A DNA stretch of 64,000 bases from Ferrovibrio sp. MS7 (lineage in GTDB: Bacteria > Pseudomonadota > Alphaproteobacteria > Ferrovibrionales > Ferrovibrionaceae): NCBI RefSeq assembly GCF_038404985.1, contig NZ_JBBKBA010000001.1, forward strand, positions 2,322,001 through 2,386,000. The letters are read 5' to 3'. This document shows, piece by piece, positions 15,884-33,472 of this stretch. Within the stretch, counting starts at the first letter, position 1; each line of letters opens with the position of its first letter. A program made the position numbers and the translations under genes. The notes below the pieces were generated by a model that saw nothing but the letters and a program-made list of their open reading frames with translations, ran no database searches and was not told the origin of the DNA.

Positions 15884-17053
15884 TCAACGATAGGGATCGG
15901 CTGCGTCGCGCAACCCGTCGCCGAAGAAGTTGAAGGCCAAAACCACCAGGACGACCGGAATGGCCGGGGCCATCAGCCACGGGTAAAGCGCCACCACGTT
16001 GATATTCTGCGCCTCGTTCAGCAGCACGCCCCAGGAGGTGATTGGCGGCCGCAGGCCAAGGCCGAGGAAGGACAAAGCCGTCTCGCCCAGGATCATGGAC
16101 GGGATCGACAGCGTTGCCGAGGCGATCAGGTGGCTCATGAAGCTTGGCATCAGGTGACGGCCGATAATGCGGCTGGGGCTGGCGCCCATGAGCTGCGCGG
16201 CAGTGCAGAAATCCTCCTCGCGCAAGCTGAGCAGTTTGGAGCGCACGGCGCGGGCGAGGCCCGGCCAGTCGAGTAGGCCGAGGATGATGGTGATGCCGAA
16301 ATAGACCAGGATCGGCGACCAGGTGACCGGCAGGGCGGCGGATAGCGCCATCCAGAGCGGCAGTTCGGGCAAACTTCGGATGATTTCGATCATGCGCTGG
16401 ATCACATTGTCGATCCAGCCGCCGTAATAGCCAGAGATGCCGCCCAGCACGATGCCGATGATGAAGCTGATGGCGATGCCGATCAGGCCGACGGTAAGCG
16501 AGATGCGGGTGCCGTAGACGATGCGGGAGTAGATGTCGCGCCCGAGCCGGTCGGTGCCCATCAGGTAGAAATGCCCATCCTCCGCCGGGCAGACGAAGTG
16601 GAAGCGCATCGGGATCATGCCCCAGAACTGGTAGGCATCGCCCTGGCAGAAGAAGCGCAGCGGCAGCACGCGCCGCGTATCCTCGGTATATTCGCGTTTC
16701 AGCGTATCGACATTGAGCTTGAAGCGCAGGCCATAGACAAACGGGCCGACGAACTCGCCCTCATGGAACAGGTGGATCTCGCTCGGCGGCGCGTAGATGG
16801 CGCGGGCGTTGCGAGTCTGCACATTGTAAGGCGCGATGAATTCGGAAATCAGCGTCGAGCCATAGATCAGCAGCAGGATCACGGCGCTCCAGACGCCGAG
16901 GCGGTGGCGCTTGAACTTCCACCACATCATCTGCCATTGCGAAGCTTGGTAGTAGCGCTCCTGCTCCGGCGACAGCTTCTCGACGGAATAGGGATCGAAG
17001 GGCTCCTTCGAGACCCAGTGTTGCAGGCGGGTGTCGTTGGTGCTGTCGGTCAT
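15884..17053 (-). CDS. oligopeptide-type ABC transporter permease (OppC-like)
   Basis: A 389-residue inner-membrane permease. After a hydrophilic N-terminal stretch rich in aromatic residues comes a first membrane span (VWSAVILLLIYG), then a periplasmic loop of about 120 residues, then the BPD_transp_1 domain. The EAA loop is visible in FCTAAQLMGASPSRIIGRHLMP. The end FNFFGDGLRDAADPYR is typical of DppC/OppC proteins. It follows the OppB-like gene by 1 bp and is the last gene of the operon. Confidence 0.92.
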   Translation of the reverse strand: MTDSTNDTRLQHWVSKEPFDPYSVEKLSPEQERYYQASQWQMMWWKFKRHRLGVWSAVILLLIYGSTLISEFIAPYNVQTRNARAIYAPPSEIHLFHEGEFVGPFVYGLRFKLNVDTLKREYTEDTRRVLPLRFFCQGDAYQFWGMIPMRFHFVCPAEDGHFYLMGTDRLGRDIYSRIVYGTRISLTVGLIGIAISFIIGIVLGGISGYYGGWIDNVIQRMIEIIRSLPELPLWMALSAALPVTWSPILVYFGITIILGLLDWPGLARAVRSKLLSLREEDFCTAAQLMGASPSRIIGRHLMPSFMSHLIASATLSIPSMILGETALSFLGLGLRPPITSWGVLLNEAQNINVVALYPWLMAPAIPVVLVVLAFNFFGDGLRDAADPYR

Positions 17054-17054
17054 G

Positions 17055-18080
17055 CTACTTGGCCTTGCCGCCGGTGAGCCGGATGCGCGGATCGAGCAGG
17101 GCCAGCAGAATATCGGAAACCAGCATGCCGAACACGGTCAGCACCGCCAGGAACATCAGGAACGAGCCGGCGAGATACTGATCCAGCGATTGCAGCGCGC
17201 CGAGCAGCATCGGGCCTGCGGTCGGCAGGCTCATCACCACCGAAACGATCACCGAGCCGGACACCATATGCGGCAGCAGGTTGCCGATATCGGCGATGAA
17301 CGGATTCAGCGCCATGCGGATCGGGTATTTCACCAGCAGCTTAATCGGTGGCACGCCCTTGGCGCGCGCGGTGGTGACATACTGCTTCTGCAATTCATCT
17401 AGCAGGTTGGCGCGCAGGCGGCGGATCATCGCCGCCGTGCCGGACGTGCCGATCACCACCACCGGCACGATCATATGTGCCATCAGCGACTTGAATTTCT
17501 CCCAGCCCCAGGGTGCATCAATCAGATGCTCGTCCACCAGGCCGCCGATGCTCATGCCGAACCAGATGTTGAAATAATACAGCATCACCAAAGCGAGCAG
17601 GAAATTCGGCGTCGCGAGGCCGAGATAGCCGAGCAGGGTGAAGCCGTAATCGCCCCAGCTATATTGCCGCGTGGCGGAATAGACGCCGATCGGGAAGGAG
17701 ACGATGTAGACGAACAGGATGGTGAAGAAATTGATCACCGCCGTCATCACCAGGCGGTCGCCGATCAACTCGCTCACCGGCCGGTTATACTCGAACGACC
17801 AGCCCCAATCGCCCTGCAGCAGGCCGGCAAAGCCGTTCGGGCCAGGAATGAAGCCCATCCAGATGGCGTATTGCTCGATCAGGCTGCGGTCCAGTGCATA
17901 TTGGTGGCGCAGGTATTCGGCACGCTCCATCGCCGAGCCTTCGCCCTGGGCGCGCAGCTCGGCAATCTGGTTGCTGAGGAAGTCGCCGGGCGGCAGCTTG
18001 ATGATGATGAAGATCAAGGCGCTGATGATCAGCAAGGTCGGGATCATCAGCAGCAGCCGGCGGGCCAGGTACATCAGCAT
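17055..18080 (-). CDS. oligopeptide-type ABC transporter permease (OppB-like)
   Basis: A 341-residue permease beginning MLMYLARRLLLMIPTLLIISALIFI, the usual DppB/OppB N terminus. It has about six membrane spans and the EAA loop (YVTTARAKGVPPIKLLVKYPIRMALNP). It pairs with the OppC-like permease to form the membrane channel of the importer. It lies 10 bp after the binding-protein gene and 1 bp before the second permease gene. Confidence 0.93.
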   Translation of the reverse strand: MLMYLARRLLLMIPTLLIISALIFIIIKLPPGDFLSNQIAELRAQGEGSAMERAEYLRHQYALDRSLIEQYAIWMGFIPGPNGFAGLLQGDWGWSFEYNRPVSELIGDRLVMTAVINFFTILFVYIVSFPIGVYSATRQYSWGDYGFTLLGYLGLATPNFLLALVMLYYFNIWFGMSIGGLVDEHLIDAPWGWEKFKSLMAHMIVPVVVIGTSGTAAMIRRLRANLLDELQKQYVTTARAKGVPPIKLLVKYPIRMALNPFIADIGNLLPHMVSGSVIVSVVMSLPTAGPMLLGALQSLDQYLAGSFLMFLAVLTVFGMLVSDILLALLDPRIRLTGGKAK

Positions 18081-18090
18081 GGAATGGCGC

Positions 18091-19995
18091 TCACTGCTTC
18101 ATCCAGAAAATTTCCGGCCGGTACATGCCGATCAGTGCGCCGGGATCCCAGTTGTAGATGCCTTCATCGGGCACATTGGCCAGCTTGCGGTTCACCACGA
18201 TCGGCTGGAACACGCCGGTGATCACGCCGATGGTGTACATCTGGTCCATATGGATGGTGAGCATGCGGTGCCAGATCTGCTCGCGCGTCGTCAGGTCGCC
18301 GGCCTCGGTCCAGTCCTCGTTCAGCTTCAGCAGTTCCTTGGCCTCGGTCATGTCCGGCGCTTCGCCATTCTGGCCCTTGGTCTCATAGAACTGGCCCCAT
18401 TTCGGCCATTGCAACTGGAACTGCGAGGTCGGCGCCAGTTCGGACGGGCTGGCGGCGGCATTCGGCACGCCATTCTCCAGGCCCGACCACACGCTCATCA
18501 ATGCCTCGCCGGCGAAGATGCGGTTGCGCAGCACGTCGCGCTGGCTCGGCTTCGGGAACATCTTGATGCCGAGCTTGAGCCAGCTTTCGGCGATCAGTTC
18601 CAGGATGTCGATCTGCTCGGAAACCTCGCCGGCGGTCTCGATGATGATTTCCATCGGTCGGCCATCGGGCAGCAGGCGGATGCCATCGGCGCCACGCTTG
18701 GCAAGCCCCAGTTCATCCAGCAGCTTGTTCGCCTTGGCGATGTCGAACTCGATGTCGCGGGTCTGATACATCGGGCGGAACAGCGGGCTGTCGGGCAGCA
18801 CGGTGTTGTTGGCTTCCTGCGCCAGGCCGTAGAACAGCGACTGGTTCACCGCCTCGCGGTCGATGCCATGCGAGAGCGCGCGGCGGAAGCGCACGTCGCG
18901 CACCAGCTTGCGCCAAGTGGCATCATTCACGTTGAAATTCGGGAAGATGGTGAAATGCGAGCCCTTGGCGGTCTTCCACAGCAGGGTGCGGTAACCGGCG
19001 CGCTTCTCGTTCTCTTTCAGGAAGGTGAAATTGGAGAAGGCGATGGTGCGGAACTGCACATCGGCCTCGCCGGCACCGGCCTTGGCCGGGATCAGCTTCG
19101 GGTCGGCCTGGGCCAGCACCACGCGGTCGAGATAGGGCAGTTGTACGCCATTGGCATCGACGCGGTGGTAATAGGGATTGCGCACGGCAACGAAGCGGAT
19201 CGATGGCGGCCGGGTCTGGATCATCCAGGCATCCAGCGTCGGCAGGTCCGGGTTGTCGTTCTCCACCATGTTGTCGATCTTGTTGTGCAACGCCGCCCAG
19301 TTGGCGCGCTTCTCGGCCGCCGCCAGCTTCGCCAGCGCCGCCGGATCGGCGTATTTGGCGTGGTATTTCTTCAGGTAGGTGGAGGGGCGGTAGAGATAGA
19401 AGGCCGAGGTGCCGGCAATGCGCGGCAGGAAGCGCGGGTTGCGCTGCTTCCAGCTATAGCGGACGGTATAGGCGTCGGGGAATTCCACCAGCGGCCGCTC
19501 GCCATCCACCAGCAGGTCGACCGGCGGGCCCGAAGGGCTCAATTCCGGATTGTTGGCGATATCTTCCCAGTAGTAGCGGAAATCCTCCGCCGTGAAGGGC
19601 GAGCCATCGGACCATTTATGGCCCTTGCGCAGATGGAAGGTGAAAACCCGCTCGTCCTCCACCTCGAAGCGTTCGCAGAGGTCCGGCACGAAATCGTATT
19701 TCTCGTTATAGACCACCAGGCGGTTGTAGCTGATGGTGTTGAGCAGTCGCAATTCGCGGGCGCGGCCGATCAGGGTGCGCATTTCGCCACCCTGCTGGCC
19801 GATCTTGTAGGGCGGCTTGAACTCCACCAGCATCGGCTTTTCCGGCAGCCGCTTTTCAATCGGCGGCAGCTTGCCGGCGCCGACATCGGCGGCCAGCGAA
19901 GCGGTTTCCTTCAGCGTCACCTGTGCCCAGGCTGCCGTGGTGGATGTGGTAGTGAGAGCGGCGAGCAGAAGGGCGGCGCGGGCGAAGTGTTTCAT
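18091..19995 (-). CDS. extracellular solute-binding protein, family 5
   Basis: A 634-residue periplasmic binding protein with a signal peptide ([24 protein letters not shown]). The SBP_bac_5 fold shows FTFHLRKGHKWSDGSPFTAEDFRYY-type sequence and VRFRRALSHGIDREAVNQ. At over 600 residues it is longer than DppA/OppA and closer to the large subgroup that includes YejA. The ligand (peptide, opine, sugar or antibiotic-like) is not deducible. It overlaps the ATPase gene by 4 bp. Confidence 0.92.
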   Translation of the reverse strand: MKHFARAALLLAALTTTSTTAAWAQVTLKETASLAADVGAGKLPPIEKRLPEKPMLVEFKPPYKIGQQGGEMRTLIGRARELRLLNTISYNRLVVYNEKYDFVPDLCERFEVEDERVFTFHLRKGHKWSDGSPFTAEDFRYYWEDIANNPELSPSGPPVDLLVDGERPLVEFPDAYTVRYSWKQRNPRFLPRIAGTSAFYLYRPSTYLKKYHAKYADPAALAKLAAAEKRANWAALHNKIDNMVENDNPDLPTLDAWMIQTRPPSIRFVAVRNPYYHRVDANGVQLPYLDRVVLAQADPKLIPAKAGAGEADVQFRTIAFSNFTFLKENEKRAGYRTLLWKTAKGSHFTIFPNFNVNDATWRKLVRDVRFRRALSHGIDREAVNQSLFYGLAQEANNTVLPDSPLFRPMYQTRDIEFDIAKANKLLDELGLAKRGADGIRLLPDGRPMEIIIETAGEVSEQIDILELIAESWLKLGIKMFPKPSQRDVLRNRIFAGEALMSVWSGLENGVPNAAASPSELAPTSQFQLQWPKWGQFYETKGQNGEAPDMTEAKELLKLNEDWTEAGDLTTREQIWHRMLTIHMDQMYTIGVITGVFQPIVVNRKLANVPDEGIYNWDPGALIGMYRPEIFWMKQ

Positions 19996-21893
19996 GCCAC
20001 AAGCTCCCGGGCATCGGCGGAAGCCGCAGCCCGAACGTAATGGCCCTCGCCGAGATCGATCAGGGCGGGGCGCGTGGTGCCATCAATGGTGAAAGGGGCG
20101 GGCCAGGCTGCGGGGATGGAGGCCTTGCCTTCCATCAGCAGCTTGAGATCGAGCCGGGCATTCGGATCCGGCTTCGGCACGGCGGCAAGCAATGCCTTGG
20201 TGTAGGGATGCACCGGGCGCTTGAACAGCAATTCGCGCGGCGCCAGTTCCACCAGCCGGCCGGCGCACATCACCGCGATGCGGTCGGCGATATAATCGAC
20301 CACGGCGAGATTGTGCGAGATGAACAGGTAGGTGAGGCCGAGTTCCTTCTTCAGGTCCTTCAGCAGGTTCAGTACCTGGGCCTGGATCGACACGTCGAGT
20401 GCCGAAACCGGCTCGTCGCAGATCAGCAATTCCGGCTGCAAGGCGAGCGCGCGGGCGATGCCGATGCGCTGGCGCTGGCCGCCGGAGAAACTGTGCGGAT
20501 AGCGGCGCAGGTGGCGCACATCCAGGCCGACCAGGGTCATCAATTCCTTCACGCGCTCGAACCGCTCCGTTTCGTCGCCGATCTGGTGGATCACCAGCGG
20601 CTCGGACACGATGTCGAACACCGTCATGCGCGGATTGAGCGAGGAGAACGGGTCCTGGAAGATGAACTGCACCTTGCGGCGGAAGTCGAACAGCGCCTGG
20701 CCTTCCAGTTGCAGCACATCAACATCCTGATCGCCGCCATGGAAGCGGATGCTGCCTTCGTCCGGCGTCAGCGCCCGCATGATCATCTTGCTGGTGGTGG
20801 TCTTGCCGCAGCCGCTTTCGCCCACCAGCCCTAAGCATTCGCCGCGCTGCACGGCGAAGCTGACATCATCCACCGCCAGCGCCACGGCATTCGACTTGCC
20901 ACTGAAAAAACCGCCCTTGCGGATGGAGAAGCGCTTGGTCAGGCCGCTCACTTCCAAGAGCGGCTTGCCGGCCTGTTCGGCCACGGGTGCGCGGCGCTTC
21001 AGCATACCGCCAACTTCCGCCTTGATTTCGCGGATCGGCACCAGCCGTTCGCCCGGCTTCATGTCGAAGCGCGGCACGGCATTCAGCAGCGCCTTGAGAT
21101 AGGGATGTTCGGGATGGCGGAAGATGTCGTCGAGCGAACCGCGCTCCATCACCTTGCCGTGGTACATCACCACAATCTCGTCGGCCATGTTGGCAACAAC
21201 ACCGAGATCATGGGTGATCATCAGCACTGCCATGCCGAGTTCGGTCTGCAGGTCCTTGATCAGTTTCAGGATCTGCGCCTGGATCGTCACGTCCAGCGCC
21301 GTGGTCGGCTCGTCGGCGATCAGCAGGGCCGGGCGGCAGACCAGCGCCATGGCGATCATGGCGCGCTGGCGCAGGCCACCGGAAAGCTCGAAGGCATAGG
21401 TGTTCATGGCGCGGGCCGGATCGGGGAAGCCGACCAGGCGCAGCATGTCGGTGGCGAGCTTGTCGGCCTCTTCCTGGCTGGCGTTGCGGTGCAGCCGCAG
21501 GGCTTCCGTCACCTGGTTGCCGATGGTGTGCAGCGGCGACAGCGAGGTCATCGGCTCCTGGAAGATGATCGAGAGGCGGCCGCCCTGCAGCTTGCGCATC
21601 TCATCGCCATCGCGCTGCAGCTTGGCGATATCGACAATGGTGCCGCTCCGCGCCGGGTCGCGGAACAGGATCTCGCCGCTGGCGATGTGTGCCGCCCGCG
21701 GCAGGATGCCCATGATCGCCTGGCTGACCACTGACTTGCCGCTGCCGGACTCGCCCACCAAAGCCACGGTCTTGCCCTGTGGGACGCGGAAGCTGATGCC
21801 ATCCACCGCCTTGATCACGCCTTCGGAGACGCGGAACTGCACCCGCAGGTCGCGAACGTCGATCACCGGGGTGAAGTCATCGGCGGCACTCAT
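19992..21893 (-). CDS. fused double ATPase of the oligopeptide ABC importer
   Basis: One 633-residue chain carries two complete nucleotide-binding domains. Domain 1 (about 8-300) has Walker A GESGSGKS and Walker B LLIADEP. Domain 2 (about 310-633) has Walker A GESGCGKT, signature FSGGQRQR and Walker B LLICDEP. Each domain is followed by the oligopeptide-type C-terminal extension. This is a DppD-DppF (GsiA/YejF-like) fusion, so one protein powers the importer. It overlaps its neighbours by 4 bp on both sides. Confidence 0.95.
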
Positions 21894-22425: not shown

Positions 22426-23196
22426 TTAACCCGGTGGCGGCCCGGCGCCGAAGGCCGTATCGATATCCACCCAGAACGCGGCGCGATGCGCCTGGGTATG
22501 GGCAATGAAGCGGGCGGTGAAAGCCCAGGTCGCCTCATCCTGCTGCGCATGGTGGGTGAGCAGGCCGAGCGGCTCGGCATCAGGGGTTTCCCGCGCCAGA
22601 CGAAGCTGGCGCAGCGCCTGGTCGAGGCAGGCGGCTTCACCGAGAAAACCCGCACCCTGGCGCCAATCCACCGGATCGAGATGGGTATTCACCTGCATCA
22701 GGCCCGGCGCCGCCCATGCTTCCTCGCGCGCCTTGTAGGTGGAAAGGCCATGCAGCCCCAGGCGCGGCAGATGTGGCAGCAGGGCGGGCGCGATGCGGTT
22801 CCAGGGCGGCACCAGCACCGGGCGCAGGCCGATACCGAACAGTTTTTTCAAGCTTTCGCGGCCCTGGCGCAGGTCGGCCAGGGCTTCCTGGGCCGGGCGG
22901 GCACTGGGGAATTCCGCCTTCTTCTCGCCCGCCGGGGCATGGTTCCGGTGCGCGAAACCATGTTGCAGTACAGCAATCGAGTCACGGCCCCGCAGCGCCT
23001 GGGCCAGCTCGGCGCCGGCGCGGGCTGGGATCACCGCCAGGCTGAGCGGCGCAGCGTTTGCCGCCTGCAGGTCCAGCAGCCGCTGCAATTCTGGCGTCAG
23101 TGCGCCGGCATCATCGTCGCGCCACCAGAACAGGGCTTTGCGGCCCAGCGTCGCCCAGGCATCGAGTTCGGCATCAAGTGCTGCCCAGTTACTCAC
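22426..23196 (-). CDS. polysaccharide deacetylase-like protein
   Basis: A 256-residue protein from a GTG start at 23196 that forms a GTGA overlap with the preceding transferase gene. It has the LFWWRDDDAG motif near residue 20, where the paired aspartates bind metal in NodB-like deacetylases. QHGFAHRNH is a likely metal-binding histidine motif, and LVPPWNRI and LLTHHAQQDEAT motifs also fit. No signal peptide is seen, so it would act in the cytoplasm on an intracellular glycan or glycolipid precursor. It is the last gene of the glycosyltransferase operon. Confidence 0.78.
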   Translation of the reverse strand: MSNWAALDAELDAWATLGRKALFWWRDDDAGALTPELQRLLDLQAANAAPLSLAVIPARAGAELAQALRGRDSIAVLQHGFAHRNHAPAGEKKAEFPSARPAQEALADLRQGRESLKKLFGIGLRPVLVPPWNRIAPALLPHLPRLGLHGLSTYKAREEAWAAPGLMQVNTHLDPVDWRQGAGFLGEAACLDQALRQLRLARETPDAEPLGLLTHHAQQDEATWAFTARFIAHTQAHRAAFWVDIDTAFGAGPPPG

Positions 23197-24335
23197 GCGA
23201 GCAGCCGGTGGAGAAGGGCAGCCGTGTTGGCGGCGCCATCCAGGTCCAGCACCGGCTTGTCGGGCAAAGCCATGTCCAGGGCGCGGTCGACAGCCTCGGC
23301 CAGCGCCGCCGGCGTTGCCTCGGACTCGCGCAGGGCCTGCACTGCGCCGCGCTGGCGCAGCAGGTCGGCGCGCAGGGCCTGCTCGGTCTCGTCGCCGCCC
23401 GAGAACGGCACCACCACGGCGCGGGCGCGGGCGGCGAGTGTTTCCATCACCGTGTTGTAGCCGGCCTTGCTGATCGAGACGCGGCAATGCCGCAGCATGC
23501 TGGGGAAATCCGGCCGCGCCCAATCGACGATCACGCCATCGGGTGCCATGGCGCGCAAGGCCGCCACATCCTCGGCGCTTTCCTGCCGGCTTACCAGCAG
23601 GCGCCAGGTGAGATCGCGCGCCCGCGAGAGTGGCCGCGCGGCGATGGCCGTGCGGAACAGCGGCATGCCGACCGCGCCGCCGCCGGCCGAGACCAGCACT
23701 TCATCGCGCCCGGCCTCGGTCGGCTGCAATTCGGATTGCTCGACGATATAGCCGGTGTAATGCAACGGGGTGGTGATGCGGCCAGCCAGCGGGAAAGTCT
23801 GCTCGAACGGGATGAAACGCGGGTCGCCGTGGATCAGCGTGCCGTCGTAATGGTTTTCCAGCCAGGCCAGCACATCCAGGTCGCGCTCTGGCTTGGTGCG
23901 GTCGACCAGGATGTCGCGCACCGAACTCAGCACCAGCGGGCGCGCTTTGCTCGAACGGATATGCGCCAGCCAGGGCAGCAATTCATGCCGCATCGGCCGG
24001 CGCGCATAGGGAAACAGTTCGGTGATCACGGCCGCCGGCTGGAACTCATCGAACAGGCGGTAAAGCTCGGCGCGGCGCTGTTCCCACCAGGCATCATCGA
24101 CGCGGTTGCCGGCGAAATCGAGGATGATGCGGAAACTGGCATCGGCGGCGCGAGCCGGCGGCAATTGTGCGAAGCGGATACCATCCAGCTTGCCCAGTGT
24201 CGGATCGGGATAGCCGCCGGAAACCAGCAGCACCTCGAAGTCGGCGCGGGCCAGCGCGCGGGCAATCGCGGCGACGCGGTGCAGATGGCCGACGCCAAGC
24301 AGATGCTGCACATAGATCAGGACTTTGGCACTCAT
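23193..24335 (-). CDS. MurG-like glycosyltransferase (GT28 type)
   Basis: A 380-residue protein beginning MSAKVLIYVQHLLGVGHLHRV, a GT-B N-terminal nucleotide fold with the GxGH loop. The C-terminal half has EVLVSAGGGAVG and SISKAGYNTVMETLAARARAVVVPF, the donor-binding part of the GT28/MurG group. It probably transfers a nucleotide-sugar unit; donor and acceptor are unknown. It overlaps the genes on both sides by 4 bp. It resembles the first transferase of the operon (27281-28510) in layout, so the two may be paralogues. Confidence 0.82.
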   Translation of the reverse strand: MSAKVLIYVQHLLGVGHLHRVAAIARALARADFEVLLVSGGYPDPTLGKLDGIRFAQLPPARAADASFRIILDFAGNRVDDAWWEQRRAELYRLFDEFQPAAVITELFPYARRPMRHELLPWLAHIRSSKARPLVLSSVRDILVDRTKPERDLDVLAWLENHYDGTLIHGDPRFIPFEQTFPLAGRITTPLHYTGYIVEQSELQPTEAGRDEVLVSAGGGAVGMPLFRTAIAARPLSRARDLTWRLLVSRQESAEDVAALRAMAPDGVIVDWARPDFPSMLRHCRVSISKAGYNTVMETLAARARAVVVPFSGGDETEQALRADLLRQRGAVQALRESEATPAALAEAVDRALDMALPDKPVLDLDGAANTAALLHRLLA

Positions 24336-24913
24336 CGCGGCACCAGCGGAATATTCATCTGTTCGGGGCGCGGCAAGCCGTCGGCCTCCAGGCGGAAGAC
24401 ATGCAGGCAGGTCCAGTCCAGCTTCACCGGCGGCTTGCCCAGCATCGGCCAGTCATAGGCCAGCGCCAGTATGGCACGGATTACGCCCTTGTGGCTCATG
24501 GCGCCGCAATTCACGCCGGCTTCGGCACGGGCGCGCAGCCAGGGCTTGAGGCGGTCCTGCACCTGGCGCGGGCTTTCGCCATTCGGCGGCTGCAGGTCCA
24601 GGCCGCGCGATTCATTCTCCAGGAAATCGCCGAGATGACTCAGGTCGTCCAGCGTCTTGCCTTCATACTCGCCCCAATGGGTCTCGATCAATGCGGCGTC
24701 AGGCGCCGGTTCAAGGCCGAGGGCTTTTGCCGTCTGCCGCGTGCGGATCAGCGGGCTGGTGAACCACGGCCAGGCATCGTAGGGCGCAGGCAGCTTCTGC
24801 TGTTGCAGTTTCGCCAGCGCGCTATCGAGTGCCGGAATATCGGCGCGGCCTTGCAGCCGGCCGGCTTCGTTCCAGGCGGTGCGGGTATGGCGGTAGAGCG
24901 CGAGCAGCGTCAT
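24332..24913 (-). CDS. histidine phosphatase family protein
   Basis: A 193-residue protein of the phosphoglycerate-mutase-like superfamily. The phospho-acceptor motif is LYRHTRTAWNEAGRLQG, with RHT at residues 8-10 instead of the common RHG. Later parts are an ETHWGEYEGKTLDD acid segment and the second histidine in SHKGVIRAIL. It probably removes a phosphate from a sugar phosphate or lipid-linked intermediate of the surrounding glycan operon. It overlaps both neighbouring glycosyltransferase genes by 4 bp. Confidence 0.85.
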   Translation of the reverse strand: MTLLALYRHTRTAWNEAGRLQGRADIPALDSALAKLQQQKLPAPYDAWPWFTSPLIRTRQTAKALGLEPAPDAALIETHWGEYEGKTLDDLSHLGDFLENESRGLDLQPPNGESPRQVQDRLKPWLRARAEAGVNCGAMSHKGVIRAILALAYDWPMLGKPPVKLDWTCLHVFRLEADGLPRPEQMNIPLVPR

Positions 24914-26049
24914 GCCGGCAGGCCGAGTTTACGGAACACGGCATGGAAATGGCGCTGCGCCGCCGGGATGTCATGCTCCATGGCGACATTGCTCAGTGCC
25001 GCCTCGCGCATGCGTGCCAGCCGGCCCGGCGCATCCAGCAGGTCGCCGAGCGCCACCGCCATCGCCGGCCAATCATCCATCGGCGTCAGCCAGCCGGTTT
25101 CGCCGGTCTTGACGATATCGGGCACGCCGCGCGTATCGGAAGCCAGCACCGGCAGGCCGCAGGCCTGGGCTTCCAGCAAGGCCATGCCATAGGCCTCATT
25201 CACCGCCGGCCAGACATAGAGATCGCTCACGGCATAGACGCCTGCGAGTTCTTCCGGCGTCAGCAGCCCGGTGAAGGTGGCGCGCGCACCAAGCGGCGCC
25301 AGGGCGGCTTCCACATCGGCGCGTGCCGAGCCGTCCCCCACCACCAGCAGCCGCCAGGGTTTATGCAGCGCGCGGCGCAGCACGTCGCCGAGCGCGCGGA
25401 AGGAGGCAAGCTTGTCGCCCGGCCGCATCATGCCGACAGCCAGCAGCCAGGGCTCGTCGGTGGGCAGGCGATAGCGCTGGCCCCAGACCGGGCGCAGCGC
25501 ATCGCGGTGCGCCAGCACGCGGGCATAGGGTTGCGCATCGAGGAAGGGCGGCAGCGAATACACCCGCTCCGCGCCGGCCAGGCGCTCGACGCAGGTGCGG
25601 TCCAGGTTGGTGAGGCAGAACAGCGCATCGGCCATGCGGATGGCATTGGCCGCCTGCACATAGCCCTTGGCCCAGGCGGAATTGGCGCGCTTCGGTGCCA
25701 CCGAAGGCTCGGCGATCACGTAAGGCTTGCCGAAGCGCTGCTTCAGCGCCGGGCCGATATAATCGGCGGCCTTGTGATAGACGTGATAGGTGAAGAACAG
25801 GTCCGGCAAGGACGCCGGCGGGCCGGAGAAAACCCGCGTCAGGCGCGAGACTTCGGCGGTGCTGGCGTCCGCGATGCCGGTTTCGCGTGCCGGATTGCCA
25901 TCGCTGTTATAGGTGCGCAGATCGGAGATCACCTGCACCTCATGGCCCATGCCCTGCAACGCCGCCATCAGCAGCCGCGCCATGCGGCGGTCGCCGGATG
26001 GCGAAGGATGGTCGGGCGGTTTCAGCGGGGCGTAGAAGCCAATGCGCAT
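24910..26049 (-). CDS. glycosyltransferase family 4 protein
   Basis: A 379-residue GT-B transferase beginning MRIGFYAPLKPPDHPSPSGDRR. The C-terminal GT4 core is clear: LLVVGDGSARADVEAAL, FTGLLTPEELAGVYAVSDLYVWPA and NEAYGMALLEAQACGLPVLA, which holds the ExxxxxxxE donor-binding motif. The ATG at 26049 gives a normal N terminus; the frame stays open upstream but overlaps the preceding gene. It is third in the operon, 2 bp after another GT4 gene. Confidence 0.9.
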   Translation of the reverse strand: MRIGFYAPLKPPDHPSPSGDRRMARLLMAALQGMGHEVQVISDLRTYNSDGNPARETGIADASTAEVSRLTRVFSGPPASLPDLFFTYHVYHKAADYIGPALKQRFGKPYVIAEPSVAPKRANSAWAKGYVQAANAIRMADALFCLTNLDRTCVERLAGAERVYSLPPFLDAQPYARVLAHRDALRPVWGQRYRLPTDEPWLLAVGMMRPGDKLASFRALGDVLRRALHKPWRLLVVGDGSARADVEAALAPLGARATFTGLLTPEELAGVYAVSDLYVWPAVNEAYGMALLEAQACGLPVLASDTRGVPDIVKTGETGWLTPMDDWPAMAVALGDLLDAPGRLARMREAALSNVAMEHDIPAAQRHFHAVFRKLGLPA

Positions 26050-26051
26050 CG

Positions 26052-27284
26052 CTACACTGCCTCCAGGCCGAAGCGCCGCGCCAGGTCGGCAATGCCGGCC
26101 TGCATGCTGAAAGTCTCGCGCACCCGGTTTGCTCCGGCTTCGCCCAAGCCTTGGCGCAAGGCCGGATCGGTGATCAGGCGCTGAAGGGCAGCGGCGAGCG
26201 CCGTTGCATCTTCGGGCGGCACCAGCAGCCCGGTTCGTTCCGGCTGGATCAGTTCGGGAATGGCGGAGAGATCGGTGCTGACGCAGGCGAGCCCCTGGCT
26301 CTGCGCTTCCATCAGCACATTCGGCAGGCCATCCATGTCGCCATCGCCATCCTGTCGGCTCGCCAGCGCGAACAGATCGGCCTGACGATAGGCCTCGATC
26401 ACCGCATCCTGGGCCTGGGCGCCACGCCAGGCGATACGGTCGGCAAGGCCGAGCCGCTGCGCCTGTTGTTTCAGCGCCGGCAACAATGGCCCGCCGCCGA
26501 TATGCTCGAAACGCCAATGCAGGTCGCGCGGCAGCTTTGCCAGGGCATCGAGCAGAATGTCGTAGCCCTTCTTGGCGACCGCGCGGCCGACCGAGACCAG
26601 CCGCACCGGATCGGCGGCGTCGCTGCCATCGCGCGCCGGGCGCGCTGCGGGTGGCGAAGGAAAGCGGCTGGCATCGATGCCGTGATAGACCAGGCTGACT
26701 TTCTCTGCGGCATTGATGCTGCGCAGATGCGCGATGTTATGCGCGTTGCAGGTGACGGCCCATTGGCAATCGGCAAGTTTCTCCTGCTTCTCCCAGGCTG
26801 GCGTGGTCCACAGGTCGCGGGCATGGGCCGAGGCGGTCCAGGGCAGGCCACAGAGATGCGCCGCGTAGCGCGCCACCGAGCCTGGTGTGTGCACGAAATG
26901 CGCATGGATATGGCGATAACGCGCGGGCAGTTCGGCGGCCAGCACCAGGGCCTGACCGAGCCGGCGGGCCCGGTTCGGCGTCAGGTCGCGCAGCAGGTCG
27001 CGCCACCACAGTTTCAACGTTTCGCCATAGCCGGGCAGGCGACGGGCCTGCCACCAGCCGCGCAGCACGCGCAGCGGTTCCTGGTAGAGATATTCCGGCA
27101 GATACAGGATCGGCGCACGGATGGCGTCGTTCAGCGCATGGCGCTTCTTATCGGTGGGATGGCGCAGCGAGACGATCATGATCTCGAGGCCAAGTTTTTC
27201 CAGCGCGGCGATTTCCTGGGCGATGAAGGTCTCTGAGAGACGCGGATAGCCCTTGAGCACAAAAGCGACGGGAACTGGACTCAC
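26052..27284 (-). CDS. glycosyltransferase family 4 protein (colanic-acid type)
   Basis: A 410-residue GT4 protein beginning with VAFVLKGYPRLSETFIAQEI, the hallmark of the colanic-acid/exopolysaccharide transferase group (WcaL/ExpE-like). The C-terminal core has LVSVGRAVAKKGYDILLDAL, FALASRQDGDGDMDGLPNVL and EAQSQGLACVSTDLSAIPEL. It is expected to add a hexose to a lipid-linked or surface glycan. It overlaps the upstream transferase gene by 4 bp. Confidence 0.9.
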   Translation of the reverse strand: MSPVPVAFVLKGYPRLSETFIAQEIAALEKLGLEIMIVSLRHPTDKKRHALNDAIRAPILYLPEYLYQEPLRVLRGWWQARRLPGYGETLKLWWRDLLRDLTPNRARRLGQALVLAAELPARYRHIHAHFVHTPGSVARYAAHLCGLPWTASAHARDLWTTPAWEKQEKLADCQWAVTCNAHNIAHLRSINAAEKVSLVYHGIDASRFPSPPAARPARDGSDAADPVRLVSVGRAVAKKGYDILLDALAKLPRDLHWRFEHIGGGPLLPALKQQAQRLGLADRIAWRGAQAQDAVIEAYRQADLFALASRQDGDGDMDGLPNVLMEAQSQGLACVSTDLSAIPELIQPERTGLLVPPEDATALAAALQRLITDPALRQGLGEAGANRVRETFSMQAGIADLARRFGLEAV

Positions 27285-28510
27285 GCGCGGAACTCGACCA
27301 CCTGGCCGGTCGGGGCTTCGCGCGGGGTCGGGCGCAGCCAGGGATGCACCAGACGGTTCACATTCTCCAGGCCTTCCAGCAGGCCCGGAATCACCACTTC
27401 GGAAGGCAGGCGCTGGCGCGGCAGGGCGCGGATCGCCGCCGACATCTCGGCTGCGTCATAGCGCTCGTCATCTTCCAGCATGCGGACCAGGCCCAGCTCC
27501 TGGGCGCGGGCGGCGCGGATATACTGCTCCATGCGCGGCTTCTTGCGCGGCACGATGATGGCGCGCTTGTTCAGCGACAGGATCTCGCAGAAGGTGTTGT
27601 AGCCGCCCATGGCGATGACACCGACGGCATTCTGCACCAGATGCTCCATATGGGCATCGAAGGTGATGGCCTCGACGCGCGGCAGCCGTGCCACGCGGGC
27701 GAGGAATTCCGCCCGGCGCTCGCGCTGCATGAACGGGCCCAGCACCAGCAGGGCCGGGTAGGGCAGCATCTCGTTGCTCTCATAGGCGCGCAGCACCCAT
27801 TCGATCAGGCCTTCGCCATCGCCGCCGCCGCCCGGCGTCACCAGCAGGAACGGGCGCTGGGTGATTTCGGGCAACTGGTGCTCGTTCGGCGGCTCACCGG
27901 AGGTGCGCGGCAGGTAGCCGGTATAGACGATCTTGCGCGCCACCTTCTCGGGCAGGTCGATGCCTTCCAGCGGGTCGCAGAATTGTGGCAGGCCGTAGAC
28001 CCAGATCTGGTCATAGAGATTGCGCAAAGCCGGCATCACATTTTTACGCCGCCATTCCGGCTCCAGCGCCTTCGGCTCGTCCATCACGTCGCGCAGGCCC
28101 AGTACCAGCTTGGTGCCCCGGGTCTTGAGCATGCGCAGCGTATCGGCAACCTCACCGCGCAGACCCAGGGGCTCCTTATCGACGATAAAGATATCGGGAT
28201 CGAAAGCCTGGGCGGTGTGCTGGATGATCTCGGCCCGCAGCTTCAGCGTATCCTCGATATGGATCGGCAGGCTCAGCGAGGTGTATTGCCCGTCGCGTAG
28301 CTTGATCACGCCGGGAATGCGCACGAAATCGACCCGGCTGCGGAAATCGAAACTGCCAATGATCGGTGAGCCGGACAGGATCAGCACCGACATATCCGGA
28401 TTGTTCTCGACCAGGGCATGGCCAAGGGTACGGCAACGGCGCAAATGGCCGAGGCCGAACGTGTCGTGGCTGTAGATCAGCACACGCGTTCCGTCGCTAC
28501 GCGACACCAT
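27281..28510 (-). CDS. predicted glycosyltransferase (COG4671-like)
   Basis: A 409-residue protein starting with a short basic tail, then VLIYSHDTFGLGHLRRCRTLG, the N-terminal GT-B loop seen in predicted MurG-like transferases. The C-terminal half has FLLVTPGGGGDGEGLIEW and GVIAMGGYNTFCEILSLNKRAIIVPRKKPRMEQ, a nucleotide-sugar binding region. It is the first gene of the six-gene glycan operon and is divergent from the ABC exporter-like gene with 187 bp between start codons. The sugar and acceptor are unknown. Confidence 0.83.
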   Translation of the reverse strand: MVSRSDGTRVLIYSHDTFGLGHLRRCRTLGHALVENNPDMSVLILSGSPIIGSFDFRSRVDFVRIPGVIKLRDGQYTSLSLPIHIEDTLKLRAEIIQHTAQAFDPDIFIVDKEPLGLRGEVADTLRMLKTRGTKLVLGLRDVMDEPKALEPEWRRKNVMPALRNLYDQIWVYGLPQFCDPLEGIDLPEKVARKIVYTGYLPRTSGEPPNEHQLPEITQRPFLLVTPGGGGDGEGLIEWVLRAYESNEMLPYPALLVLGPFMQRERRAEFLARVARLPRVEAITFDAHMEHLVQNAVGVIAMGGYNTFCEILSLNKRAIIVPRKKPRMEQYIRAARAQELGLVRMLEDDERYDAAEMSAAIRALPRQRLPSEVVIPGLLEGLENVNRLVHPWLRPTPREAPTGQVVEFRA

Positions 28511-28697: not shown

Positions 28698-31349
28698 GTG
28701 GAAAAGAACCTATACAAATTCATCATCAAGCATTCGTTGCGTCAGCAGGTGATCATTACCCTGCTATCGGTCGCATCCTTCATTCCCTACTACTATTACC
28801 TGTCGATGCCCAAGACGATCATCAACGAGGGCATCGCGGGCAAGGGCGTGCATTACCCCGTCGACCTCTTCGGCCTCGGCATCGTGGATCTCGGCAAGGT
28901 CGATTACCTGATGGTCCTGTGCCTTGGCTTCCTGTTCCTTGTGCTGGTGCAGCAGGCATTCAAATACGCTATCAACGTGTTCCAGGGCATTGCCGGCGAA
29001 CGCATGCTGCGTCGCCTGCGCTATGACCTCTACTGCCATGTGCTGCGCTTTCCGCTGCCGACTTTCCGCAAGACCAGCCAGGGCGAAATCATTCCGATGA
29101 TCATCGCCGAGGTGGAGCCGGTTGGCGGCTTCATCGGCGAAAGCTTCGCGCTGCCGATCTTCCAGGGCGGCATGCTGCTGGTGATCTTCGGCTTCCTGCT
29201 GATTCAGAATCCGGTGATGGCGCTGGCGGCGGTGGCGCTGTATCCGATCCAGTTCTACATCGTGCCGAAGCTGCAGCGCCGCGTGCGCGCGCTGGGCAAG
29301 GAGCGCATCAAGAACCAGCGCCGGCTCTCGGACCGCATCGGCGAGACGGTGACCGGTGTGGTCGAACTGCATACCCATGACGGTTCCAACCGCATGCTGG
29401 CGGATTTCTCCAAGAAGCTCGGCGTCAGCTACTGGATCCGCGTCGAAATCTTCCAGCGCAAGTTCGTCATCAAGTTCGTCAACAATTTCATCCAGCAGCT
29501 TGGGCCGTTCTTCTTCTACACCATCGGCGGCTATTTCGTGATCAAGGGCCAGATGGATGTGGGTACCGTGATCGCGGCGGTGAACGCGCATAAGGAAATG
29601 GCGGCGCCGTGGAAGGAGCTGCTGAACCACTACCAGACCCGCGAGGATGTGAAGCAGAAATACGAACAGGTGGTGAGCCAGTTCGAGCCGCAGGGCCTCA
29701 AGCCCGCGACCGACATCCTGGAAGAGCCCGCCGAGCCGGTGTCGCTGGCCGGCCCGATTGTCACCAGCAGCCTGGCCTTGAGCGACGACCAGGGCGTGAC
29801 GGTGCTGGACAATGTCGGTGTCACCTTGCCCTGGCCGGCACGCGTCGCCGTGGTTGGCGGCAGCGGACGCGAGGAATTCCTCCAGACCCTGGCGCGGCTG
29901 CATGAGCCGACACGCGGCAAGGTGTCGATCAATGGCTGCGTGCTGGCCGACCTGCCGGAAACCGTCACCGGGCGTCAGCTCGCCTATGTCGGCGCTTCGG
30001 CGCATATCTTCAACGCCACGCTGGGCGACAACCTGTTCCTCGGCCTGCGCCAGCGCCCGGTGCATGAGAAGCAGCGCGATGACGAAGCCAAGCGCCTCTA
30101 TGCCCGCGAGATGACCGAACTGCAGGCATCCGGCAATATCCTCTACGATGTCGATGCCGATTGGACCGATTACCGCCGCGCCGGCGCGGAAAGCCCGGAG
30201 CAACTGACCCAGCGCGCCATCCAGGCGCTGCAAGTCGCGGCCTTCGACGACGACGTGTATCAGCTAGGCATGCGCGGCACGATCAATCCGAAGCAGCAAT
30301 TCCGGCTGGCGGAACAGGTGCTGGAGGCCCGGCGTGCCTTCCGCTCGCGGCTGGCCGATAGCGACATTGCCGATCTGGTCGAGGGCTGGGATCCCGGGCG
30401 CTACAATTCCAACGCCACGGTGGCGGAAAACCTGATGTTCGGCACCGCGCGCGACGGCGCTTATGATGTCGACAACCTGTCGCGCGATCCGCATATCCTG
30501 AAAGTGCTCGATGAAGTGGGCCTGCGCGACCGCTTCGTGCAGATCGGCTATGACGTGGCCTCCACCATGGTCGAATTGTTCGCTGACCTGCCGCCGGACC
30601 ATGAATTCTTCCAGCAATTCAGTTTCATCTCGTCGGAAGACCTGCCGGAATACAAGGACATGCTGGCGCGCGCGCGGCCCGATGCGCTGGGCCAGTTGCG
30701 CGAGGAAGACCGCGTGCGGCTGATGTCGCTGCCGTTCAAGCTGATCCTAGCGCGGCATCGCTTGGGCCATTTCGACGAGGCCGAGCGCGAACAGATCCTC
30801 AAGGCGCGCAAGATTTTCGCCGACACGCTGCCGCCGGAACGCCGCGCCAGCATTGCCTTTTTCGATCCCGAGACCTTCAACGCCTCGGCCAGCATCGTCG
30901 ACAACATCCTGTTCGGCCGGGTCGCCTATGGCCAGGCCCAGGCGCAGGAGAAGATCGGTCGCGTGATGGCCGATGTGATCGAGCAGGGCGGCCTGCGCGA
31001 ACCGATCATCGCCGTCGGCTTCCAGTTCGAGGTCGGCATTGCCGGTGCCCGGCTCGGCGCGGCGCAGCGTCAGAAGCTGGCGATTGCGCGCGCCTTGCTG
31101 AAACAGCCGGACTGGCTGATGCTGTCGGAAAGCACCGCCTCGCTCGATCCGCGCAGCCATGCCGCCGTGCTGCGGCAGATGCTGGAGCAGCGCCAGGGCG
31201 CCGGCCTGGTCTGGTCTTTGCAGCGCGCCGCCGATGCGGCTGGATTCGATATGGTGCTGGTATTCGAGGAAGGCCATCTGGTTGCCCAGGGCAATTTCGC
31301 CGAACTGGCCGAACATAACGCGCGATTCAAACATCTGCTGGCCGGCTGA
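28698..31349 (+). CDS. ABC exporter-like protein with degenerate, expanded nucleotide-binding region
   Basis: An 883-residue protein. Residues about 1-310 form an exporter-type membrane domain (HSLRQQVIITLLSVASFIPYYYYL; FVNNFIQQLGPFFFYTIGGYFVI). The rest resembles an ABC ATPase with altered key sites. The P-loop reads VVGGSGREEF, with Glu where Lys belongs. The signature is LGAAQRQKLAIARAL in place of LSGGQ. Walker B has Ser810 in place of Asp, but the following Glu811 and the SLD D-loop remain. The Q-loop-side NAT-x-x-D/E-N-L/I motif appears three times (residues 439, 572, 728), spread over a roughly 300-residue expansion. GTG28698 is chosen because AGGGGG lies 7 nt upstream; GTG28671 has no such site. 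Substrate and activity are unknown. Confidence 0.85.
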   Translation: MEKNLYKFIIKHSLRQQVIITLLSVASFIPYYYYLSMPKTIINEGIAGKGVHYPVDLFGLGIVDLGKVDYLMVLCLGFLFLVLVQQAFKYAINVFQGIAGERMLRRLRYDLYCHVLRFPLPTFRKTSQGEIIPMIIAEVEPVGGFIGESFALPIFQGGMLLVIFGFLLIQNPVMALAAVALYPIQFYIVPKLQRRVRALGKERIKNQRRLSDRIGETVTGVVELHTHDGSNRMLADFSKKLGVSYWIRVEIFQRKFVIKFVNNFIQQLGPFFFYTIGGYFVIKGQMDVGTVIAAVNAHKEMAAPWKELLNHYQTREDVKQKYEQVVSQFEPQGLKPATDILEEPAEPVSLAGPIVTSSLALSDDQGVTVLDNVGVTLPWPARVAVVGGSGREEFLQTLARLHEPTRGKVSINGCVLADLPETVTGRQLAYVGASAHIFNATLGDNLFLGLRQRPVHEKQRDDEAKRLYAREMTELQASGNILYDVDADWTDYRRAGAESPEQLTQRAIQALQVAAFDDDVYQLGMRGTINPKQQFRLAEQVLEARRAFRSRLADSDIADLVEGWDPGRYNSNATVAENLMFGTARDGAYDVDNLSRDPHILKVLDEVGLRDRFVQIGYDVASTMVELFADLPPDHEFFQQFSFISSEDLPEYKDMLARARPDALGQLREEDRVRLMSLPFKLILARHRLGHFDEAEREQILKARKIFADTLPPERRASIAFFDPETFNASASIVDNILFGRVAYGQAQAQEKIGRVMADVIEQGGLREPIIAVGFQFEVGIAGARLGAAQRQKLAIARALLKQPDWLMLSESTASLDPRSHAAVLRQMLEQRQGAGLVWSLQRAADAAGFDMVLVFEEGHLVAQGNFAELAEHNARFKHLLAG

Positions 31350-31377
31350 GCCGCCGCAGGAGCGAAAGGATTGAGCC

Positions 31378-31830
31378 ATGAGCCTGAACGAAGAAGTGGA
31401 AGCCCTGCGGCGTATCCCGCTTTTCGCCAAGATCGAGCCGGCCAAGCTCAAGCTTCTGGCCTTCACCAGCCAGCGCATCACCTACAAGCCGGGCGACGTG
31501 CTGTTCAATCAGGGCGATCCCGGCGATGCCGCCTATGTCATCTTCGGCGGTGAGGCCGATGTTTCGGTCAACACGCCGAATGGCCCGCTCACCGTGGCGC
31601 GGCTGAAGCAGAATGATTTCGTCGGCGAAATCGCCATCCTCTGCGACGTGCCGCGCACCGCTACCGTCACCGCCAAGACCGAGCTGGTGACCTTGCGCAT
31701 CGCCAAGGACCTGTTCTTCCGCCTGATCAACGATTTCCCGCAGATTGCCATCGAGATCATGCGCGTGCTGGCGCAGCGCCTGGAGCGCACCACCGCCGAC
31801 CTGCGCGCTGCTGCCGCAAAGAATTCGTGA
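31378..31830 (+). CDS. cyclic nucleotide-binding domain protein
   Basis: A 150-residue protein that is essentially one cNMP-binding fold (PLFAKIEPAKLKLLAF, PGDVLFNQGDPGDAAYVIFGGEADV, FVGEIAILCDVPRTATVTA). The phosphate-binding-cassette position reads GEIAILCDVPRTAT, close to CRP-like proteins. No DNA-binding helix-turn-helix follows, so it is not a transcription factor of the CRP type. It starts 28 bp after the ABC exporter-like gene and may gate or regulate it. The real ligand is not shown by the sequence. Confidence 0.9.
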   Translation: MSLNEEVEALRRIPLFAKIEPAKLKLLAFTSQRITYKPGDVLFNQGDPGDAAYVIFGGEADVSVNTPNGPLTVARLKQNDFVGEIAILCDVPRTATVTAKTELVTLRIAKDLFFRLINDFPQIAIEIMRVLAQRLERTTADLRAAAAKNS

Positions 31831-31848
31831 TCGGGTGAGGCAGCGCGC

Positions 31849-32337
31849 GTGAGCCGGCTCGACAGTTTCATCCGTCGCCTTTCGGCGCAGCGTAGCGTGC
31901 TGGATTGGGCGGCCCAGGCGATCCGCGATGTGTCTGGCCCGGTGCTGGAAGTGGGCTTGGGCAATGGCCGCACCTACGATCACCTGCGCGAAAAGCTGCC
32001 CGGCCGCGACATCTACGCTTTTGACCGCGCCGACAACGCGCATCCGCAATCCAAGCCGGCCGGTGATCTGCTGGTGCTTGGGGAATTCTCCGTCACGCTG
32101 CCTGCCTTCGCCGCGCGCCATGGCGCTGTGGCGGCGCTGATCCATTGCGATACCGGCTCGGGCGACGCGGCGGCGAATGCGCGCCAGGCCGCCTGGCTGT
32201 CCGATCTGGTGCCGACCCTGGGCCGCACTGGCGCCATCGTGCTCTCCGACCAGCGTCTGACGCATCCTCGCCTCAGCGTCATGACGCCACCGGTGGAAAT
32301 CCCGCCGGAACGGTATTTCCTCTACACAATTTTCTAA
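31849..32337 (+). CDS. small class I SAM-dependent methyltransferase
   Basis: A 162-residue protein from GTG31849. It has motif I as PVLEVGLGNGRTYDHLRE near residues 28-45 and an acidic motif in YAFDRAD. The compact build matches the bacterial Methyltransf_17-like family. The substrate is unknown. It is 18 bp after the cNMP-binding gene and appears to be the last gene of a three-gene set with the ABC exporter-like gene. Confidence 0.8.
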   Translation: MSRLDSFIRRLSAQRSVLDWAAQAIRDVSGPVLEVGLGNGRTYDHLREKLPGRDIYAFDRADNAHPQSKPAGDLLVLGEFSVTLPAFAARHGAVAALIHCDTGSGDAAANARQAAWLSDLVPTLGRTGAIVLSDQRLTHPRLSVMTPPVEIPPERYFLYTIF

Positions 32338-33446: not shown

Positions 33447-33472
33447 GCACAGCTAAGTCAGGAGGCATCATC

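Follow-up and report, generated by a model that had tools for sequence, protein, structure and literature searches.

We describe an 883-residue pseudo-exporter of the ATP-binding cassette (ABC) type encoded by Ferrovibrio sp. MS7, a member of the Alphaproteobacteria, within a stretch of 64,000 nucleotides (contig NZ_JBBKBA010000001.1, positions 2,322,001 to 2,386,000; hereafter the window). The protein belongs to a conserved alphaproteobacterial family of pseudo-ABC exporters under purifying selection. In this family, the ATPase motifs of the nucleotide-binding domain (NBD) are lost, one segment of this domain is triplicated, and a domain for the binding of cyclic nucleotide monophosphates (cNMPs) is encoded by the neighboring gene or fused to the C-terminus. 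The loops that dock the NBD onto the membrane domain are conserved, and they are missing from relatives devoid of an NBD. We put at about an even chance the proposal that the protein is exporter-like, would be gated by cAMP or cGMP through an NBD that does not hydrolyze ATP, and would serve the glycan gene cluster linked to it. The gene, its parts, and the adjacent cNMP gene are the following.

28698..31349, + strand: pseudo-ABC exporter, 883 residues, GTG start, made of a transmembrane domain (TMD) and an enlarged degenerate NBD (open reading frame [ORF] list, Pfam, predicted structure)
28698..29687, + strand: TMD, residues 1-330, with the conserved cytoplasmic loops ICL1 (113-127) and ICL2 (215-238) (Pfam, predicted structure, family alignment)
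29850..29879, + strand: degenerate P-loop VVGGSGREEF, residues 385-394, with R391 and E392 (sequence, family alignment)
30012..30044, + strand: repeat motif copy 1, NATLGDNLFLG, a Q-loop-proximal motif, residues 439-449 (profiles, family alignment)
30051..30845, + strand: NBD insert, residues 452-716, containing the remainder of copy 1 and copy 2 (structure alignment, insert fold)
30402..30443, + strand: repeat motif copy 2, residues 569-582, NATVAENLMFG from 572 (profiles, insert fold, family alignment)
30876..30917, + strand: repeat motif copy 3, residues 727-740, NASASIVDNILFG from 728 (profiles, family alignment)
31053..31067, + strand: degenerate signature LGAAQ, residues 786-790 (sequence, family alignment)
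31113..31130, + strand: degenerate Walker B WLMLSE, residues 806-811 (sequence, family alignment)
31378..31830, + strand: cNMP-binding protein, 150 residues, phosphate-binding cassette GEIAILCDVPRTATV (PF00027, E 4.5e-20)

Pfam assigns a type IV ABC exporter membrane domain to residues 66-294 (PF00664, E 5.1e-24) and matches ABC_tran (PF00005) only as broken pieces; above the curated cut-offs, Pfam and NCBIfam give nothing else. The best NCBIfam model, MsbA (TIGR02203), scores 159.6 bits where an MsbA equivalog would need 602, and a PHROGs search returned only generic ABC or unknown families. An alternative in-frame GTG located nine codons upstream (28671) is a possible start; alignments with homologues begin at 28698. 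A search of the same genome revealed no close paralogue; the next match scores 55.9 bits. A metagenome-assembled genome of Ferrovibrio carries a 100% identical ABC protein with neighbors that are 97-100% identical.

The predicted model of the whole protein has a mean pLDDT of 81.8 and a pTM of 0.74, with block means of 75-96 from residue 341 onward. A complete NBD fold is predicted within residues 347-882, together with about 298 extra residues. The NBD of ComA aligns with this region over 238 of 240 residues (Z 30.5, 1.9 A) and that of TAP1 with residues 343-883 over 244 of 251 residues (Z 29.1), according to VIA structural comparisons; TM287/288 (Z 30.3) and TmrAB are also among the matches. 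An exporter membrane domain and an ATPase half of about twice the normal size had both been proposed from a sequence-only reading of the window. The PF00664 match and Z scores of about 30 to exporters bear out the former, the complete ComA-like NBD with its additional residues the latter. The protein therefore resembles the type IV ABC exporters MsbA, Sav1866, TM287/288, PCAT1, and ComA in its TMD fold, its complete NBD fold, and, within the family, its conserved docking loops. It differs from them by its degenerate ATPase motifs, an NBD longer by about 300 residues, and a cNMP partner.

Most elements expected to sustain ATP hydrolysis are affected; the window protein keeps Glu811 of Walker B. 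In the window protein, Arg391 replaces the Walker A lysine and Glu392 the following Ser/Thr (GGSGRE, which departs from GxxGxGK[ST]), LGAAQ stands in place of LSGGQ, and Ser810 replaces the Walker B aspartate. These confirm the altered P-loop, signature, and Walker B serine noted earlier, which lie at residues 385-394, 786-790, and 810. That list was incomplete: besides the Walker A Ser/Thr, the Q-loop glutamine (Ala433) and the H-loop histidine (Gln842) are also replaced. The family alignment comprises 90 distinct members of at least 800 residues and, from the same genome, a single canonical exporter. The Walker A lysine is present in 31 of the 90 members and is combined with Ser/Thr in two; the Q-loop glutamine and the H-loop histidine are each found in 25. 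The S/T-G-G-Q signature occurs in 1/90, as do both signature glycines, and the Walker B aspartate in 10/90 (3/90 together with the glutamate). None of the 90 aligned homologues possesses the full motif set, the maximum being five of seven canonical elements, and the loss of the standard hydrolysis motifs holds family-wide. Glu811 is unlikely to be the key to the function of the protein because just 39 members retain it. One cNMP-fused member of 1103 residues (L089) keeps the Walker A K/S pair and both the D and E of Walker B in the absence of the signature; it is a possible evolutionary intermediate.

Part of this pattern would fit a protein that still binds ATP, or hydrolyzes it slowly by an altered chemistry using an Arg/Lys P-loop and, in some members, Glu811, with the cNMP subunit modulating an ordinary ATP cycle. 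The glycine-rich loop is largely kept (G387 and G390 in 80/90 each, R or K at position 391 in 81/90), the D-loop aspartate is retained in 78/90, and the Glu811 count and the motifs of L089 point the same way. However, the Mg-binding Ser/Thr of Walker A is exchanged for Glu or Asp in 73/90 members, and the scarcity of the Walker B aspartate, the H-loop histidine, and the signature glycines also argues against such a cycle. Moreover, both composite sites of a homodimer would be affected, unlike those of heterodimeric exporters with one good site. We consider this explanation rather improbable.

Exporters that work as heterodimers with one degenerate site are a familiar class, and the window protein might be the degenerate half of such a pair, its normal partner being encoded elsewhere. 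TmrAB and TM287/288 are of this kind among the structural matches, and the genome holds seven other PF00664 matches, six of them over the cut-off. We nevertheless judge this very unlikely: degeneration extends to Walker A, Walker B, and the signature alike, so that neither site could be completed by a partner, and a canonical exporter was present in the examined flanks of only one of 79 loci. A linked second half is thus not the rule, and a heterodimer with a linked exporter was rejected.

Lost catalytic motifs could also reflect gene decay, and in Sinorhizobium meliloti 1021 the family gene of pSymB (L119:19724-22427) is split over two frames; it is open in strain USDA1021. For the window gene, this explanation is refuted and retains a negligible probability. 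The C-terminal 549 residues match 98 of the 289 alphaproteobacterial genomes sampled (E<=1e-30), and in a sample of the phylum all 25 matching genomes, out of 299, are from Alphaproteobacteria. Plasmid records contributed 346 matches, of which 262 cover at least 80% of the query, mainly in rhizobia and roseobacters. Of the 90 members, 80 have 860-925 residues, and the repeat motifs contain invariant positions. The dN/dS ratio is 0.17-0.27 for the whole gene and 0.09-0.22 for the membrane domain, in comparisons with four Ferrovibrio relatives of which two (L007 and L008) are not independent. The family also includes two divergent members, L081 (826 residues) and L083 (870 residues), for which the tblastn match starts only at about residue 347-352 and whose N-terminal part forms a very long branch in the TMD tree. 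We found no description of this family in the open-access literature searched; subscription papers, mostly outside that search, may hold one.

The NAT/NAS-type motif reported earlier at residues 439, 572, and 728 is indeed present three times, the copy 3 motif being two residues longer than the other two. Its asparagines at positions 445, 578, and 736 are each invariant in 90/90 family members. Profile-profile comparisons of residues 418-545, 546-700, and 701-815 gave scores of 43.8 (copies 1-2), 68.2 (2-3), and 33.2 (1-3), for maxima of 22.5, 22.5, and 20.8 with shuffled columns. Chance repeats are ruled out, as in each of the three pairs all 100 shuffles scored lower than the real profiles. 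Compared with canonical NBDs, the copy 3 profile matches throughout the stretch between Q-loop and signature (probability 99.3), that of copy 1 over 25 columns (probability 94.1), and that of copy 2 scarcely at all by sequence (probability 8.2). When folded alone, the insert yields a model with a mean pLDDT of 83.4 and a pTM of 0.60. Its first seven VIA matches are all ABC proteins, the best being CFTR NBD1 (Z 5.8, 72 residues, 2.4 A), with insert residues 116-258 (protein 567-709) aligned with CFTR 494-565; the eighth is 7ekm, titled "Mitochondrial outer membrane protein," and the ninth is CFTR NBD1 again. The proposal that one ABC subsegment was repeatedly duplicated is therefore supported by the profiles and, more weakly, by the fold: the extra residues arose by duplication, and the segment extending from the Q-loop to the signature is triplicated. 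It is by this helical segment that an NBD contacts both the membrane domain and the NBD facing it.

The cNMP gene starts after a gap of 28 bases downstream of the exporter gene. PF00027 is the only Pfam hit over cut-off in its 150-residue product, which lacks a C-terminal DNA-binding domain of the CRP/FNR type, as had been predicted. The association is usual in the family. Among the 74 testable loci, which either carry a fusion or extend 600 bases or more downstream, a cNMP domain is encoded by a neighboring gene (within 1.5 kb, same strand) in 63 and forms a C-terminal fusion in 8, or 71/74 in total. PF00027 was verified in 8/8 fusions and in three further records, of Azospirillum, Ruegeria, and Sulfitobacter. 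The cassette pattern G-E-x(n)-R-x-A is found in 59 of the 64 separate partners listed; most separate partners thus kept their cNMP site while the ATP sites decayed. In the cNMP partner of the window, the cassette arginine is followed by a threonine (PRTA), presumably reminiscent of cGMP-selective eukaryotic domains. The genome has 11 matches to class III cyclases (PF00211), and a cyclase gene lies within the Rhizobium leguminosarum and S. meliloti clusters. By its name, TIGR03896 ("bacteriocin-type transport-associated protein") is another family of cNMP-domain proteins tied to transport; however, the window partner matches it weakly (43.1 bits, below the cut-off of 161.05), and no bacteriocin system was seen at the window locus.

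In full-length members, ICL1 and ICL2 have consensus identities of 0.68 and 0.58, near those of the transmembrane segments (0.59-0.73). The TMD core residues, many of them charged, are strongly conserved and also survive in relatives lacking an NBD. On roseobacter plasmids, such relatives are annotated as proteins of 420-434 residues that correspond to the membrane domain by itself; that of Phaeobacter is 38% identical to residues 1-333 of the window protein. In Phaeobacter, Dinoroseobacter, and Pseudosulfitobacter, their genes lie inside copper-resistance gene sets; in Defluviicoccus, this setting is not clear. The copper-cluster genes are L120:11773-13077, L124:5773-7077, L122:5761-7023, and L146:6040-7281 (roseobacters and one other genome of the class). 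An NBD-less query matched 95 of the 289 genomes of the class sample, several of which have a second, short gene. Ten of the 13 short second-gene loci examined contain clean open frames of 326-415 residues, and one such gene adjoins those of CopB, a multicopper oxidase, and a PCuAC protein. Shorter relatives present as second copies (326-400 residues) were recorded at L147-L155; a pirin gene adjoins that of L148 and lies about 1 kb away in L151, and an amino acid permease gene adjoins that of L154. Pfam assigns PF00664 to both NBD-less relatives tested. With canonical NBD queries in tblastn, none of the 17 NBD-less loci has an adjacent NBD gene; five (L148, L149, L150, L153, and L155) have NBD hits, all more than 1 kb distant.

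The 14 open NBD-less ORFs have retained the membrane core and lost the two NBD-docking loops. Their six transmembrane segments show consensus identities of 0.37-0.46 with gap fractions up to 0.02, and ICL1 and ICL2 identities of 0.06 and 0.10 with gap fractions of 0.22 and 0.24. They form one clade in the TMD tree (support 0.94), placed inside the family only through three divergent full-length members that branch outside (0.76 and 0.93), the next node being supported at 0.02. Because the docking loops are constrained where an NBD is present, the NBD probably still communicates with the membrane domain; since the hydrolysis motifs are unconstrained, what the NBD passes on is probably something other than an ATP cycle. 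The secondary transporters SbmA/BacA (SLiPT) are outlined in PMC13316013 as an ABC-type TMD uncoupled from ATP, with NBD and docking loops lost. Their other hallmarks are a glutamate ladder and proton coupling. In the loss of the NBD and of the docking loops, the NBD-less relatives resemble them; the window protein differs by its folded NBD and its docking loops. A further difference is that Pfam places the window protein, like the two NBD-less relatives tested, in PF00664.

The exporter gene is divergent from a putative glycan operon, itself followed by the genes of an Opp-type importer. The linked genes in the window are the following.

31849..32337, + strand: Methyltransf_17 protein, a frequent but optional neighbor (PF12692, E 8.8e-55)
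27281..28510, - strand: glycosyltransferase GTa (GT28_C), divergent operon (Pfam, locus counts)
26052..27284, - strand: glycosyltransferase GTb (GT4; best NCBIfam match EpsE, below cut-off) (Pfam, NCBIfam)
24910..26055, - strand: glycosyltransferase GTc (GT4) (Pfam)
24332..24913, - strand: histidine phosphatase (PF00300) (Pfam)
23193..24335, - strand: glycosyltransferase GTd (GT28_C) (Pfam)
22426..23523, - strand: polysaccharide deacetylase relative, start uncertain, no Pfam hit (38.8% identity, E 8e-47, to the annotated Sulfitobacter gene L125:5137-5895)
19992..21893, - strand: Opp-type importer ATPase (OppDF fusion), two NBDs, Walker A and Walker B each present twice
18091..19995, - strand: SBP_bac_5 solute-binding protein
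17055..18080, - strand: OppB-type permease
15884..17053, - strand: OppC-type permease

Linkage was counted with non-overlapping hits in 61 distinct loci flanked by 5.5 kb or more on both sides. At least two glycosyltransferase genes are present in 45 of them, of which 42 have these genes upstream in divergent orientation. Cross-matching between glycosyltransferase queries was rejected as the source of this count, a non-overlapping recount leaving it at 45/61; for GTa alone the count fell from 42 to 34. The histidine phosphatase is found in 36 loci, the deacetylase relative in 37, and a relative of the Opp-type ATPase, not necessarily of the same importer, in 35. The methyltransferase reported among the next two genes is present in the window but is an optional neighbor, as it occurs in 23/61 loci. 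In this survey of the kind proposed earlier, the glycosyltransferase operon is commoner than the methyltransferase. The importer genes (15884-21893) also lie in Rhizobium, Sinorhizobium, and Azospirillum clusters. A second SBP_bac_5 protein is encoded at 33467-34969, just downstream of a Peptidase_S58 gene (32433-33446). A comparable setting is that of MsbA2 of S. meliloti (SMb21191), a proposed exporter of an unknown polysaccharide whose gene lies next to glycosyltransferase genes (PMC3687685). The gene set differs: as described there, it comprises an acyltransferase and two glycosyltransferases, and a cNMP partner is not mentioned among them.

From these data, we infer a ligand-gated transporter, which is the simplest reading. 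The protein would be a homodimer held together by its membrane domain, a normal one of the type IV exporter kind. The NBD would fold and dock on this domain, having lost standard ATP hydrolysis and been enlarged by two added copies of the helical segment extending from the Q-loop to the signature. The cNMP subunit, encoded by the adjacent gene or fused at the C-terminus, would bind cAMP or cGMP, and its bound state would open or close the membrane pathway through the enlarged NBD, the extra helical segments being the likely seat of the sensor. The cargo would most likely be an oligosaccharide or a glycolipid made by the linked glycosyltransferases, and the energy may come from a proton gradient or a substrate gradient, as in SbmA.

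Several observations weigh against this proposal. The cNMP partner was not found in three of the 74 testable loci (L081, L083, and L086), and just two of the eight fused cNMP domains show the cassette pattern. Relatives of the clustered cyclase are near in only 3/61 loci with long flanks, and no linked glycosyltransferase was found in 16/61. Parts of the TMD are predicted with low confidence (pLDDT < 50 at residues 160-183 and 297-302), and the fold match of the isolated insert is weak (Z under 8), Foldseek finding nothing at E<=0.001. The counts of the Walker A lysine and of Glu811 mean that the family may still bind nucleotides, or that some lineages may hydrolyze them slowly, and the NBD-less relatives possibly do a different job. 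Finally, the structures ranked first by VIA are SUR2A (Z 32.4) and SUR2B (Z 31.4), which are non-transporting ABC proteins.

The last observation introduces the main rival of the gated transporter, a non-transporting membrane cNMP sensor or scaffold that, like SUR in the KATP channel, would relay the cNMP state to the glycosyltransferases or else to the Opp-type importer of the cluster. In SUR1/SUR2 and CFTR, the ABC exporter fold serves gating and not pumping, and SUR and CFTR each keep at least one ATP site. The sequence kinship seen with SUR and CFTR is no closer than that of ABC proteins in general, other ABCB-type proteins being listed first. This alternative, to which we give a real but minor probability, agrees with the degenerate ATP sites, with SUR2A and SUR2B scoring about 2 and 1 Z units above the ComA NBD and TM287/288, and with the Opp-type ATPase, which has both Walker A and Walker B in duplicate in the window and relatives in 35 of the 61 family loci with long flanks. 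Nevertheless, further SUR2B entries fall among the exporters (Z 29.6). The conserved TMD core, with its many charged residues that persist without the NBD, suggests a pathway, and the pair formed by the ABC protein and its cNMP partner is also found without the glycosyltransferase operon.

A broader proposal can be made, which we advance tentatively and rate below an even chance: a widespread class of signal-gated ABC-fold transporters in which control would have moved from ATP hydrolysis to a docked or fused cAMP/cGMP sensor, the NBD acting as a mechanical adaptor enlarged by triplication. The side branch without an NBD would then be a secondary transporter or a channel in copper resistance, a separate case of the path taken by SbmA.

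How an ABC transporter might function without ATP hydrolysis is otherwise a hard question to address. This family offers natural variants, namely a conserved, dead-looking NBD, sensor-fused forms, and relatives devoid of both the NBD and the docking loops, that make a role of the NBD other than hydrolysis directly testable. It also raises the possibility that glycan export is connected with cyclic nucleotides in Alphaproteobacteria, rhizobial plasmids included. Because its motor has lost working parts, has gained copies of one segment, and is usually paired with a cyclic-nucleotide sensor, this family, present in about a third of the sampled genomes of the class, suggests a transporter that responds to a signal molecule as its switch instead of being powered by ATP.

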